DNA of 64,000 nt from Nonomuraea sp. NBC_00507 (GTDB lineage Bacteria > Actinomycetota > Actinomycetes > Streptosporangiales > Streptosporangiaceae): the NCBI RefSeq assembly GCF_036013525.1, contig NZ_CP107853.1:9176001-9240000 (forward strand), in the 5' to 3' direction. The position numbers and the translations under genes were made by a program. Shown piece by piece: positions 32,236 through 38,766 of this stretch. A model generated the notes under the pieces. It ran no database searches. It saw nothing but the letters and a program-made list of their open reading frames with translations, and had not been told where the DNA came from. Every line of letters begins with the position of its first letter. Position 1 is the first letter of the stretch.

Positions 32236-32255
32236 AAGTAAGGCACACCTTGCTT
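32236..32255 (+). promoter_or_regulatory. Iron box (IdeR/DmdR type)
   Basis: AAGTAAGGCACACCTTGCTT is a dyad with eight-base arms (one mismatch) around CACA. It agrees with the pattern of actinobacterial iron boxes recognised by DtxR-family repressors (AGG..AGGC.CACCT). It is about 215 bases upstream of the transporter operon start. Iron repression of that operon is inferred. Confidence 0.65.
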
Positions 32256-32396
32256 AAGTGTACTTTGTACGCGAGAGTGAGAGCGGCGGGTCGCTACTCA
32301 CGGCAGCAGGGCTCCCGCGCGGGGACCCGACTGCACCGGTGGACGCAGACCGTCGTGCGCCATGAGGCAGGGCCGACGGGCGCTCACATGGTAGCC

Positions 32397-32415
32397 AACG
32401 GAAATGATTATCGTT
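32397..32415 (+). promoter_or_regulatory. Second Fur/Zur-like dyad
   Basis: AACGGAAATGATTATCGTT is a 9-1-9 inverted repeat with two mismatches, and its centre ATGATTATC equals the core of classical Fur-family boxes. It is 57 bases upstream of the first transporter gene. Together with the DtxR-type box it suggests dual metal control. Confidence 0.5.
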
Positions 32416-32471
32416 ACTATCTCCTCGTCTGGTCACTTAACTTGGTCCGGTTCTGTCGCGAAGGGTGCTGT

Positions 32472-35980: not shown

Positions 35981-35990
35981 AAGGAACCCC

Positions 35991-36608
35991 ATGACCACGA
36001 TCACACCGGCCCAGCGCCGCTTCGACGTGAGCATGAGCCCGAAGGACCTCATCAACATCGGCGTCTTCGGCGCCCTCTACCTCGTCGTCGTGTTCGGGAT
36101 CAACATGCTCGGGTTCATCAACCCGGCCGTCATGCTGGTCGCCCTCGTCGCGAGCATCGTCGCGGGAGGGATCCCGTTCATGCTGTTCCTCACCCGGGTA
36201 CGCCACGCGGGCATGGTCACGATCTTCGCGATCGTCACCGCGGGGCTGCTCATGCTCAGCGGGCACCCACTGATCAGCTTCCTGATCAGCGTCGGCTGCG
36301 CGCTGGTCGCTGAGGCGATCATCTGGGCGGGCCGGTATCGGTCCCGCGGTCTGAGCGTGCTCGCCTACGCCGTCTACTCCGCCTGGTACGCCGGGCCGAT
36401 GATGCCGATCTTCTATGACCGTGAGGCCTACTTCTCCGGCCCCTCGATGCAGATGATGGGAGCCGACTACGTCAGCCAGATGCAGGCGCTGCTCTCCCCC
36501 GGGGTGCTGATCGCGTTCGACCTCTCCACGATCGTCTTCGGCCTGCTCGGCGGGCTTCTCGGCCTGCGGCTGATGCACAAGCACTTCGAGAAGGCAGGAC
36601 TGGCGTGA
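35991..36608 (+). CDS. ECF transporter S component, Trep_Strep/MptD family
   Basis: 205 residues with about six helices. VSMSPKDLINIGVFGALYLV near the N-terminus, the Asn-Pro pair in GFINPAVMLVALVASIVAGG and GLLGGLLGLRLMHKHFEKAG at the end agree with the Trep_Strep/MptD-type putative S components. An AAGGAACCCC ribosome site precedes the ATG. S components bind the substrate; for this family the ligands are largely unknown. Position between an iron-box half-transporter pair and its T/A components suggests a metal-related ligand such as a metallophore or tetrapyrrole. Confidence 0.85.
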   Translation: MTTITPAQRRFDVSMSPKDLINIGVFGALYLVVVFGINMLGFINPAVMLVALVASIVAGGIPFMLFLTRVRHAGMVTIFAIVTAGLLMLSGHPLISFLISVGCALVAEAIIWAGRYRSRGLSVLAYAVYSAWYAGPMMPIFYDREAYFSGPSMQMMGADYVSQMQALLSPGVLIAFDLSTIVFGLLGGLLGLRLMHKHFEKAGLA

Positions 36609-37345
36609 CCGCAACCCCGGTGGCGATCGGGGAGCGGGCCGCCGCGGCGGCCCGCCCCCGCCCGGTGCTCCGGCTGGACCCGCGGACGAAGGCGCTGCTC
36701 GTGCTCGCGACGAGCCTGGTCGTCATGGCGCCGGACGGAGCGTCGTTCATCCCCGCGGCTCTCGTCCTCGGAGTGCTGCTCGCGCTCAACGAAGGGGCCT
36801 GGGCCCGTGCCGTCGCCCTGCCGGTCGGCGCCGCCGGCATCGCGGCCATCGCCTATCTCCTGCCGGTGGCCGTGCCGCATCCGGCCGTCGGCGTCGTCGC
36901 CACCATGGCCGCGTACCTGGTCCGTTTCGTCGCCATCGGCGGCATCGCCCTGCATCTGATGTCCACGACCTCGCCCACCGAGCTCACCGCCGCGCTGCGT
37001 GCCGCCCGCGTCCCCCGCGCCATCACCGTCTCCGCGGCCGTGATGCTGCGTTTCCTTCCGATGATCATCGCCGAGGCCCGCGCCGTGTACGACGCCATGC
37101 GGCTGCGCGGGATCGGCGGATGGGGCGGCATGCTGCGTCACCCCGTGCTGAGCATCGAGCGCTTCACGGTTCCGCTCGTCGCCTCCAGCCTGCGTGTCGC
37201 CGAGGACCTGTCCGCCGCGGCCCTGCTGCGCGGGCTCGGCTCGGCGACGCGTCCCACTACCATACGCCCGCCCCGTCTGGGCGTGGCCGACCTCGCCGCC
37301 GTGCTCGTCGTGGCGACGCTGGTCATGGCCACGGTGCTGTGGTGA
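36605..37345 (+). CDS. ECF transporter T component (CbiQ family)
   Basis: 246 residues. RLDPRTKALLVLATSLVVMA is the canonical CbiQ N-terminus, and DAMRLRGIGGWGG the Ala-Arg-Gly coupling motif that touches the ATPase. About five helices. GTG start overlaps the S-component stop (GTGA), and its own stop overlaps the ATPase start (GTGA). It couples the S component at 35991 to the ATPase at 37342. Confidence 0.92.
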   Translation: MTATPVAIGERAAAAARPRPVLRLDPRTKALLVLATSLVVMAPDGASFIPAALVLGVLLALNEGAWARAVALPVGAAGIAAIAYLLPVAVPHPAVGVVATMAAYLVRFVAIGGIALHLMSTTSPTELTAALRAARVPRAITVSAAVMLRFLPMIIAEARAVYDAMRLRGIGGWGGMLRHPVLSIERFTVPLVASSLRVAEDLSAAALLRGLGSATRPTTIRPPRLGVADLAAVLVVATLVMATVLW

Positions 37346-38766
37346 TCAGAATCGAGGAGGTGCGCTGGACCTACTCCGGCGCGGACGCTCCCACTCTCAA
37401 CGGTCTCACCCTGGACGTGCGGCGCGGGGAGACGGTCGTGCTGTGCGGCCCGAGTGGCTCCGGCAAGAGCACCGCGCTCCGGCTCATGAACGGCCTCATC
37501 CCCCACTTCCACGAGGGCAAGGTCGAAGGCTCCGTCCTCCTCGACGGGCAGGTCGTCGCCGACCTGTCACTCGACCGGCTCGGCCGCCGCACCGGGACCG
37601 TCCTGCAACATCCCCGCCGCCAGTTCTTCACCGACACGACCGAGACCGAACTCGCCTTCGCGCTGGAGAACTTCGGCGAACCGGCTGAACGCATCCGGGG
37701 CCGCGTCGCCACCGGGATCGACGAACACGGGCTACGCGACCTCACCGACCGGCGACTGCAGGACCTCTCCGGCGGCCAGCAGCAGCAGGTGGCCTGCGCA
37801 GCCGCGACCGCCCACCACCCGTCACTGCTGCTGTTCGACGAGCCCACCTCGAACCTCTCCGCCGCCGCGATCGAACGCTTCACCGCCACGCTCGCCCGGC
37901 TCCGCGCAGGTGGAGCGACCATTGTCATCGCCGAGCACCGGCTGCACTACCTGCGCGGCATCGCCGACCGGTTCATCGTCATGCGTGACGGCCGTATCGA
38001 CGCCGAATGGCCCGGCGAGGAGTTCGCCGCCCTCGACGAGGACACCGTCCGCGCGAAAGGACTCCGCAGCCTCAGCCCGCCCCGGCACCCGACACCCCTC
38101 CAGGTCCAGGCGCATGGGCCCAGCATCGACCGCGACGCCGTCCCCACGAGCACCACGACCGGTGTGAACCTACGCAACATCCGCTGCGCCTTCCATGGCC
38201 GCCGCGTGCTCGACATCGACGAGGCCCGTCTCCCTGCCGGAGCGATCATCGCCGTCACCGGCCCGAACGGCGCCGGCAAGAGCACGCTCGCCCGCATCCT
38301 CACCGGCCTGCAACGGCACGAGGGAGAGGTACTCCTCGACGGGCGGCGGCTGAGCCGGGCACAACGGCAGAGGGCCAGTGCGATCGTCATGCAGGACGTG
38401 CAACGACAGCTGTTCACCGACAGCGTCGACGCCGAACTCCGGCTCGGCGCGTCCCCCGCCGATGAGCGCTCCGGCACGCTCCTGCGCGACCTCGACCTCG
38501 CCACCCTGACGGACCGCCACCCGCTCTCCCTCTCCGGCGGCCAGCAGCAGCGACTCGTCGTCGCCGCGGCCCGGCTCAGCGCCCGCCGGATCGTCGTGTT
38601 CGACGAGCCCAGCTCCGGCGTCGACCGCCGCCACCTCCACTCCATCACCCAGGTGATGCGCGATCTCGCCGACGACGGCGCGGTCGTCCTCCTCATCAGC
38701 CACGACGACGAACTCCTCGCCCTCGCCGCCGACCGAGAACTCAGACTGCGTCCCATCGACGTATAA
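37342..38766 (+). CDS. ECF transporter ATPase, two fused CbiO domains
   Basis: 474 residues with two nucleotide-binding domains in one chain. Domain 1: Walker A GPSGSGKSTALRLMNGLIPH, signature LSGGQQQQVACAAATAHHPS, Walker B LLLFDEPTSNL. Domain 2: GPNGAGKSTLARILTGLQRH, LSGGQQQRLVVAAARLSA, IVVFDEPSSGVD. This fused EcfA-EcfA' type serves a dedicated ECF module. Start GTG, coupled to the T component. With 34238-37345 it completes the operon, which ends here. Confidence 0.93.
   Translation: MIRIEEVRWTYSGADAPTLNGLTLDVRRGETVVLCGPSGSGKSTALRLMNGLIPHFHEGKVEGSVLLDGQVVADLSLDRLGRRTGTVLQHPRRQFFTDTTETELAFALENFGEPAERIRGRVATGIDEHGLRDLTDRRLQDLSGGQQQQVACAAATAHHPSLLLFDEPTSNLSAAAIERFTATLARLRAGGATIVIAEHRLHYLRGIADRFIVMRDGRIDAEWPGEEFAALDEDTVRAKGLRSLSPPRHPTPLQVQAHGPSIDRDAVPTSTTTGVNLRNIRCAFHGRRVLDIDEARLPAGAIIAVTGPNGAGKSTLARILTGLQRHEGEVLLDGRRLSRAQRQRASAIVMQDVQRQLFTDSVDAELRLGASPADERSGTLLRDLDLATLTDRHPLSLSGGQQQRLVVAAARLSARRIVVFDEPSSGVDRRHLHSITQVMRDLADDGAVVLLISHDDELLALAADRELRLRPIDV

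Follow-up and report, generated by a model that had tools for sequence, protein, structure and literature searches.

A locus of Nonomuraea sp. NBC_00507 raises the question of what is imported, and under the control of which metal, by a single operon that encodes both a pair of exporter-fold ATP-binding cassette (ABC) half-transporters and a complete energy-coupling factor (ECF) transporter. The operon lies within a 64,000-nucleotide stretch (contig NZ_CP107853.1, positions 9,176,001 to 9,240,000), referred to here as the window, whose numbering is used unless another locus is named. Our analysis points to a member of the MptD-family (mpt) operons that likely imports zinc, and probably iron, on a small thiazoline-type metallophore, a reading that we consider reasonably probable. 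Zinc first, with iron too in some lineages, is the most likely cargo of such a metallophore.

Gene content and family assignment

The five genes together spanned window positions 32472-38766:

32472 to 34238, plus strand: ABC1, IrtA-type half-transporter without a siderophore-interacting domain (ABC_membrane and ABC_tran)
34238 to 35980, plus strand: ABC2, IrtB-type half-transporter (ABC_membrane and ABC_tran)
35991 to 36608, plus strand: S, ECF S component of the MptD/Trep_Strep type, predicted to bind the substrate
36605 to 37345, plus strand: T, ECF T component of the CbiQ/EcfT family (PF02361, 73.9 bits)
37342 to 38766, plus strand: A, ECF A component with two fused ATPase domains (two ABC_tran stretches)

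With the start of ABC1 taken as the ATG at 32472, ABC1 and ABC2 overlap by one base (TGATG), a 10-base gap separates ABC2 from S, and a GTGA overlap was found at each of the S/T and T/A junctions. Direct reading of the sequence thus returned the genes, their spacing and two upstream motifs as the original prediction had described them, and its assignment of an IrtAB-like pair joined to a complete ECF transporter agreed with the family matches, cut-offs and solved relatives.

Among solved structures ABC1 was closest to IrtA (418.7 bits), followed by YbtP (305.4) and MsbA (249.9), while the best half-transporter relative of ABC2 was IrtB (324.7 bits), with YbtQ at 266.0. No N-terminal siderophore-interacting domain was observed in the 588 amino acids of ABC1, either in the family scan or by alignment to IrtA, where alignments to the full-length chains began at IrtA residue 279 or later. 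S scored 191.4 bits against Trep_Strep (PF09605, cut-off 28.7) and 124.6 bits against the MptD-family S component model TIGR02185 (cut-off 76.45). No sequence-related solved structure was found for S, and its putative fold, by comparison of its structure model, came nearest to ECF S components. T matched the solved EcfT 4hzu (E 4.7e-8) and scored 39.9 bits against the cobalt CbiQ equivalog, far under its cut-off of 111.8, and the matches of A included EcfA1 and a cobalt-transporter ATPase. The encoding of S, T and two ATPase domains together corresponds to the layout of a dedicated ECF module. An Rfam scan returned nothing at gathering cut-offs, and a sigma-70 scan of 32000-32520 returned a single promoter-like site, on the minus strand.

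Correspondence to described transport systems

The locus had been put forward as the best candidate for an undescribed system in the window. We found its counterpart in the mpt operon of Mycobacterium avium ssp. paratuberculosis, with eqbHIJ/eqbKL of Streptococcus equi as a second precedent. S was 70% identical to the MptD-family protein of M. avium ssp. paratuberculosis (protein search, P0035), and the other mpt genes were compared via published descriptions. According to these, the IrtAB-like mptABC and mptDEF form a single cluster that includes an MptD-family S component, and Zur boxes are present. Eckelt et al. 2014 (PMC4298942) reported that mptABC is repressed via a FurB/Zur box and is induced by zinc and not by iron starvation, concluded that iron is not the signal, and proposed that mptABC may import zinc; the zinc-responsive genomic island of M. 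avium that carries the operon also holds siderophore genes, cobW and ribosomal proteins that do not depend on zinc. A review groups mptABC, mptDEF, cobW and rpsR2 as one Zur regulon (PMC6103462), and a phenotype was reported for an mptD knockout in 2014 (PMC4132290). The two operons differ in that sid genes stand beside the M. avium operon, whereas none were seen beside the window operon, and in that a DtxR-type box lies upstream in the window, whereas Eckelt et al. report no IdeR site in the mpt promoter region (PMC4298942).

The S. equi set, on ICESe2, is described as a three-gene importer (eqbHIJ) with two fused permease-ATPases related to YbtPQ (eqbKL), under a DtxR-like regulator; this comparison was made by published description. 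Heather et al. 2008 (PMC3672683) reported that deletion of eqbHIJ stops most equibactin-dependent iron accumulation. Unlike the window operon, the eqb set is linked to the equibactin nonribosomal peptide synthetase (NRPS), and its iron cargo was established genetically. A dedicated ECF importer alongside an equibactin-like NRPS has also been described in Staphylococcus lugdunensis (PMC12709192), and a similar cluster joined to ABC and Ecf genes on an island of C. difficile (PMC6814731). IrtAB and YbtPQ, to which ABC1 and ABC2 are most closely related among solved half-transporters, are likewise heterodimeric exporter-fold pairs, and differ from the window set in the missing siderophore-interacting domain of ABC1 and in the ECF module that shares the window operon. 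Bifidobacterium sifABCDE was considered as a further precedent and was dropped, its permeases being of the FtsX type.

A Zur box upstream of the operon

One of the two upstream motifs, earlier described as a Fur/Zur-like dyad, was observed 53-76 bases upstream of the ABC1 start:

32396 to 32419, no strand assigned: Zur box, 23.0 bits with an outside matrix, ending 53 bases before the ABC1 start

The matrix was built solely from 19 published Zur boxes of M. avium ssp. paratuberculosis, and by this measure the dyad is a predicted Zur box, in keeping with the metal-type box first proposed. The 19-base dyad at 32397 was also above chance within the window (expected 0.02). We scanned 666,205 positions in 13 regions with the same matrix, and for 11 related operons examined 400 bases upstream of the first gene (the scanned regions of G081 and G263 stood outside this upstream test). 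Sites of at least 20 bits were observed upstream of 9 of the 11 operons, compared with a mean of 0.02 and at most 1 of 11 for 100 column-permuted matrices, and across the 13 regions 23 such sites were found against a permuted mean of 0.18. The upstream scores were 23.0 in the window, 24.8 in Nonomuraea sp. G32 (G549), 23.8 in G540, 36.8 in Nonomuraea polychroma (G534), 30.1 in a decayed copy (G541), 25.9 in G501, 26.9 in Kribbella, 27.2 in G546, where the box lies directly before S and no ABC pair is present, and 37.7 in Nocardia cyriacigeorgica (G107), where it precedes an NRPS gene. A congener of the latter (L165) had a 29.4-bit Zur box 67 bases upstream of ABC1.

In the 12.9-Mb genome the two Zur sites of the window were the best two matches to a consensus pattern that is itself partly shaped by these sites; the 19-box matrix is not so shaped. 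The genome encodes one DtxR-type and four FUR-family proteins.

An iron box in the same promoter

The second motif lies further upstream:

32234 to 32255, no strand assigned: degenerate DtxR/IdeR-type iron box, whose homologue in Streptosporangium saharense is a canonical box in the corresponding position

The 20-base palindrome at 32236 was above chance in the window (expected 0.03). Scored with a matrix built on 48 sites of this genome and related ones, from which mpt sites were excluded, it ranked first among 63,982 window positions at 13.2 bits, the next independent site scoring 2.3. Of 19 positions compared with the consensus TWAGGTWAGSCTWACCTWA, 5 differ. The iron boxes before ABC1 in N. 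polychroma and S. saharense scored 30.1 and 27.7 bits, each with at most one mismatch from the consensus; at that stringency the pattern occurred at 17 and 24 places in the two genomes, respectively, and at none in the controls. The S. saharense box lies 83 bases upstream of its ATG. By alignment, the window promoter looks like two blocks: a Zur block with 88% identity over 168 bases to Nonomuraea sp. G32, and an iron block with 79% identity over 57 bp to the S. saharense promoter. A strong Zur box and a strong iron box occur together before the N. polychroma operon, and three loci from a single genus of the G107 family (L166-L168) had iron boxes of 17.0-22.0 bits upstream of S. The operon had originally been called an iron-box operon, which overstates the case: the site is the best of its type in the window, but it is weak, and zinc control is better supported.

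Conservation and separability of the two transporters

We collected 34 S-T-A loci, from 11 of the 12 genomes of our first set (the twelfth, G541, had a broken S, and its T and A were not found), Kribbella, four Arcanobacterium genomes (in one of which A is cut by a contig end), two plasmids (from Corynebacterium and from Subdoligranulum, of the Bacillota) and 16 loci from the family of G107. That family had 18 of 351 genomes over the cut-off; G107 itself had been counted earlier, and G899 was left out, its S gene being divided between the ends of two contigs. The sample is non-random and some loci are closely related, and "beside" here means inside the fetched stretch, mostly 10 kb per side. 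So defined, the ABC pair was observed beside S-T-A in 26 of the 34 loci, so that the proposed co-occurrence in related genomes was confirmed, though in several orders: ABC1-ABC2-S-T-A in 16 (one with an intervening thioesterase, and one being S. saharense with a broken ABC1), S-T-A-ABC1-ABC2 in 6, T-A-S-ABC1-ABC2 in 3 and a convergent arrangement in 1. The module is rare: counting the window genome in each case, PF09605 exceeded its cut-off in 4 out of 394 genomes in the class and in 9 out of 341 in the family.

The remaining 8 loci had S-T-A with no ABC pair nearby. In G541 (L037, 9950-13934) the ABC pair was kept while S was broken and no T or A was found; this is a decaying copy of the module, in which the 30.1-bit Zur box remains. 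The ABC pair and S-T-A are therefore separable modules, which makes one obligate complex unlikely. This bears on the earlier suggestion of one combined uptake route, in which the pair and the ECF module would form one importer and divide the cargo between them, the chelate going to one and the metal, a precursor or a tetrapyrrole to the other. The tight gene spacing and the co-occurrence in 26 of 34 loci speak for such a route, and the juxtaposition of the two transporters stands. As a single complex it appears unlikely, given the 8 loci without the pair (including G546, with its Zur box directly before S), the G541 pair left without a working ECF module, and the different behavior of the two S. 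equi modules on deletion (PMC3672683). The example first offered, in which one of the complexes takes up a metal chelate, comes near the metallophore import that we favor.

Two further arrangements were observed among these loci. A 20.7-kb mobilizable Corynebacterium plasmid (L141, NZ_CP068167.1) carried S-T-A-ABC-ABC at 8184-14528; three plasmid records of equal length matched S, and the order was read from one of them. A plasmid search with S returned five records in total, none from Streptococcus. In L176 (9454-13052) two MptD-family S genes flanked one T-A pair (S-T-A-S), with no ABC pair in the 20 kb fetched.

Linkage to metallophore biosynthesis

Thiazoline-type NRPS genes were sought in 27 of the 34 loci (11 by TIGR01761 and 16 by tblastn; the remaining 7 were outside this probe) and were observed beside S-T-A in seven: G107, G081, L165, L169, L172, L177 and L178. 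In N. cyriacigeorgica (G107) the 37.7-bit Zur box heads a one-strand run of two NRPS genes, reductases, a thioesterase and then ABC1-ABC2-S-T-A. The first NRPS has AMP-binding, condensation and carrier domains, the second has AMP-binding, methyltransferase, carrier and thioesterase domains, and the reductases are a saccharopine-dehydrogenase-like protein and a thiazolinyl imide reductase. A motif search found no HHxxxDG in these NRPS proteins, which fits heterocyclization domains and is no proof of them. We infer a product of the pyochelin/equibactin type. The linkage in 7 of 27 probed loci also bears on whether the ECF module might carry a free divalent metal (zinc, cobalt or nickel). The membership of T in PF02361 (CbiQ) and the proposal of mptABC as a putative zinc importer (PMC4298942) would agree with free-metal import, but T falls far below the cobalt CbiQ cut-off, S belongs to the MptD family and NRPS genes accompany the module, so we regard it as quite unlikely.

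The ABC pair was present in 6 of the 7 NRPS-linked loci and was also kept in 17 of the 20 probed loci with no thiazoline genes nearby. These counts enter into a possible, though somewhat doubtful, division of labor in which the ECF module would import the loaded metallophore and the pair would export the new or emptied molecule. The exporter fold of the pair and its presence in 6 of the 7 NRPS-linked loci are consistent with this, as are the S. equi data, in which deletion of eqbKL did not stop import and the supernatant of the mutant conferred two-fold less streptonigrin sensitivity (PMC3672683). Retention of the pair in the 17 loci would be odd for pure export, however, and its nearest solved half-transporter relatives, IrtAB, are importers.

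No NRPS was found among the 26 open reading frames (ORFs) scanned in the window, and none of the listed ORFs exceeded 960 amino acids. As the window showed no metallophore genes, the strain may draw on molecules that other organisms produce. A thiazolinyl imide reductase (343 bits) was observed elsewhere in the window genome (G000:C1:11976713-12028959; L098, L099, L132), within a polyketide synthase (PKS)-NRPS locus containing a 10,909-amino-acid ORF. This locus was examined as the cognate pathway and dropped: its best Zur score, 19.5 bits, lies inside an opposite-strand ORF and not before an NRPS gene, the stretch with the start of the giant ORF reached at most 10.0 bits, and the genome-wide iron pattern had no match there.

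Nonomuraea sp. G32, called the same species as the window genome by our tool, carries a Zur-boxed PKS-NRPS cluster of 22 kb, its two box sites lying within a divergent promoter (G549:C52:36495-58604; L133, L134), which was also observed in N. polychroma. At the corresponding site of the window genome (G000:C1:3149807-3151769; L137, L138) the two flanking genes of the cluster, 98% and 97% identical in DNA, lie 289 bases apart, and the first NRPS gene of the G32 cluster had no match in the 40 kb of window genome compared. We do not claim this cluster as the ligand source; it has its own SBP_bac_5 importer, and the cluster itself is missing from this site of the window genome. Its absence would be in line with a genome that retains importers while lacking this pathway.

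Proposed mode of action

In the metallophore import that we favor, Zur would leave its box when zinc is scarce and the operon would be made, as the box and the mpt precedent suggest, and the upstream DtxR-type box would add iron control. S would bind the metal-loaded metallophore outside the cell, dock on T and the double ATPase and carry the cargo in. We assign this step to the ECF module because eqbHIJ is required for most equibactin-dependent iron import in S. equi, because NRPS genes are linked to the module and because S-T-A stands under its own Zur box in G546. The ABC pair would act on this molecule too, as a second transporter that either imports it in the manner of IrtAB/YbtPQ or returns it once emptied. 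The nearest relatives of the pair import, and the S. equi data lean toward export.

A broader reading, which we put forward tentatively and hold as possible but less likely than not, is that the two transporters form a portable metallophore module that exchanges zinc control for iron control, or the reverse, as each lineage needs, with the window genome a scavenger of molecules made by others. Within this reading Kribbella and Nonomuraea sp. G32 would have the zinc box only, S. saharense and the loci L166-L168 the iron box only, and N. polychroma, with the window as a weaker case, a two-metal switch with both boxes. Among the literature matches listed, no paper connected ECF transporters of the MptD type with control by both zinc and iron. 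The linkage of thiazoline-type NRPS genes and Zur or DtxR boxes with the module yields a specific, testable proposal, namely that this ECF class imports metallophores, and a locus with both boxes would show one importer shared between zinc and iron.

Observations that weigh against zinc-metallophore import

Several observations count against this interpretation. Predicted zinc control is not universal across the operons: no Zur site was found upstream in S. saharense (G667) and G467, and 14 of the 16 loci from the family of G107 had none at 16 bits. False Zur hits were observed inside ORFs at 21.0 bits in G546 and 19.5 bits in the window genome, both from 100 kb of other loci, so the permuted matrices may understate the noise. 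Iron control has its own difficulties; the window site is weak (13.2 bits against 27.7 and 30.1 in the relatives), and the S. saharense ABC1 frame ends after 82 codons with the remainder in another frame (L030, 12185-13900), a copy that may be decaying or misassembled. As to the metallophore, 20 of the 27 probed loci lacked thiazoline genes in the vicinity. In the window genome a single thiazolinyl imide reductase was found, 2.8 Mb away in the giant PKS-NRPS locus, and no Zur box was found before the genes of that locus.

The published record also contains points of this kind. The iron chelator DIP raised M. avium mptA somewhat (PMC4298942), and the mptD knockout resisted complementation, with its authors doubting that mptE/F share the transcript (PMC4132290). 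Import in S. equi did not require the ABC pair, and the eqbKL deletion left the iron-toxicity phenotype in place (PMC3672683). Our literature search turned up no paper naming what an MptD-family S component binds.

Neighboring genes of the window and its relatives

The genes upstream of the operon included a Zur-boxed cobW-rpsR2 pair, which the original prediction had left unmentioned:

27417 to 28418, plus strand: FecCD permease (PF01032)
28415 to 29188, plus strand: FecE/FepC-type ATPase (ABC_tran)
29741 to 29764, no strand assigned: second Zur box, before cobW-rpsR2, 31.6 bits with the same 19-box matrix
29779 to 30909, plus strand: COG0523/CobW-type GTPase (CobW_C; nearest NCBIfam models MRF and ZigA)
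30906 to 31133, plus strand: ribosomal protein S18 paralogue of the RpsR2 type (TIGR00165, 80 bits, above cut-off)
31362 to 32000, minus strand: TetR-family regulator (TetR_N), 84% to an operon neighbor in S. saharense

The CobW-type GTPase scored 199.8 bits against NF047431, under its cut-off of 375, and the translation of the S18 paralogue is free of cysteine from 30909 on. A cobW-rpsR2 pair was observed at most 9 kb from the operon in the window, Nonomuraea sp. G32, G540 and G541. Five further small proteins lie near the pair in G540, which we take to resemble zinc-independent ribosomal paralogues. In Kribbella a Zur-boxed set of ZnuA, ATPase and ABC-3 genes immediately follows A.

These neighbors also bear on heme or another tetrapyrrole as the ligand, by analogy with the heme-binding LhaSTA of S. 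lugdunensis, which likewise has dedicated ECF S-T-A genes for an iron source and was compared by description. Iron-controlled heme ECF transporters exist and a DtxR-type box lies upstream of the operon. LhaSTA differs from the window operon in its heme ligand and in the zinc boxes present at the latter; zinc boxes and zinc-starvation neighbors dominate here, and no heme gene was observed among the scanned neighbors, leaving heme import very improbable.

Adjoining the Zur-boxed cobW is a histidine-rich ORF of 105 amino acids (29251-29568, minus strand) with repeats around CGHVAVPHDDHVDYVHDG and no NCBIfam match, possibly a zinc-binding protein. Farther upstream, an ABC half-transporter fragment (25634-26866, minus strand) and the C-terminal half of a FecCD protein (26917-27420, plus strand) lie 50 bases apart, both without their N-terminal parts, and their junction is likely a deletion or rearrangement. 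G540 (L033) has near its operon a set of FecCD, ATPase and proteins of 329, 564 and 567 amino acids, the 564-residue member being an ABC half-transporter, which may be a fuller relative of these window fragments.

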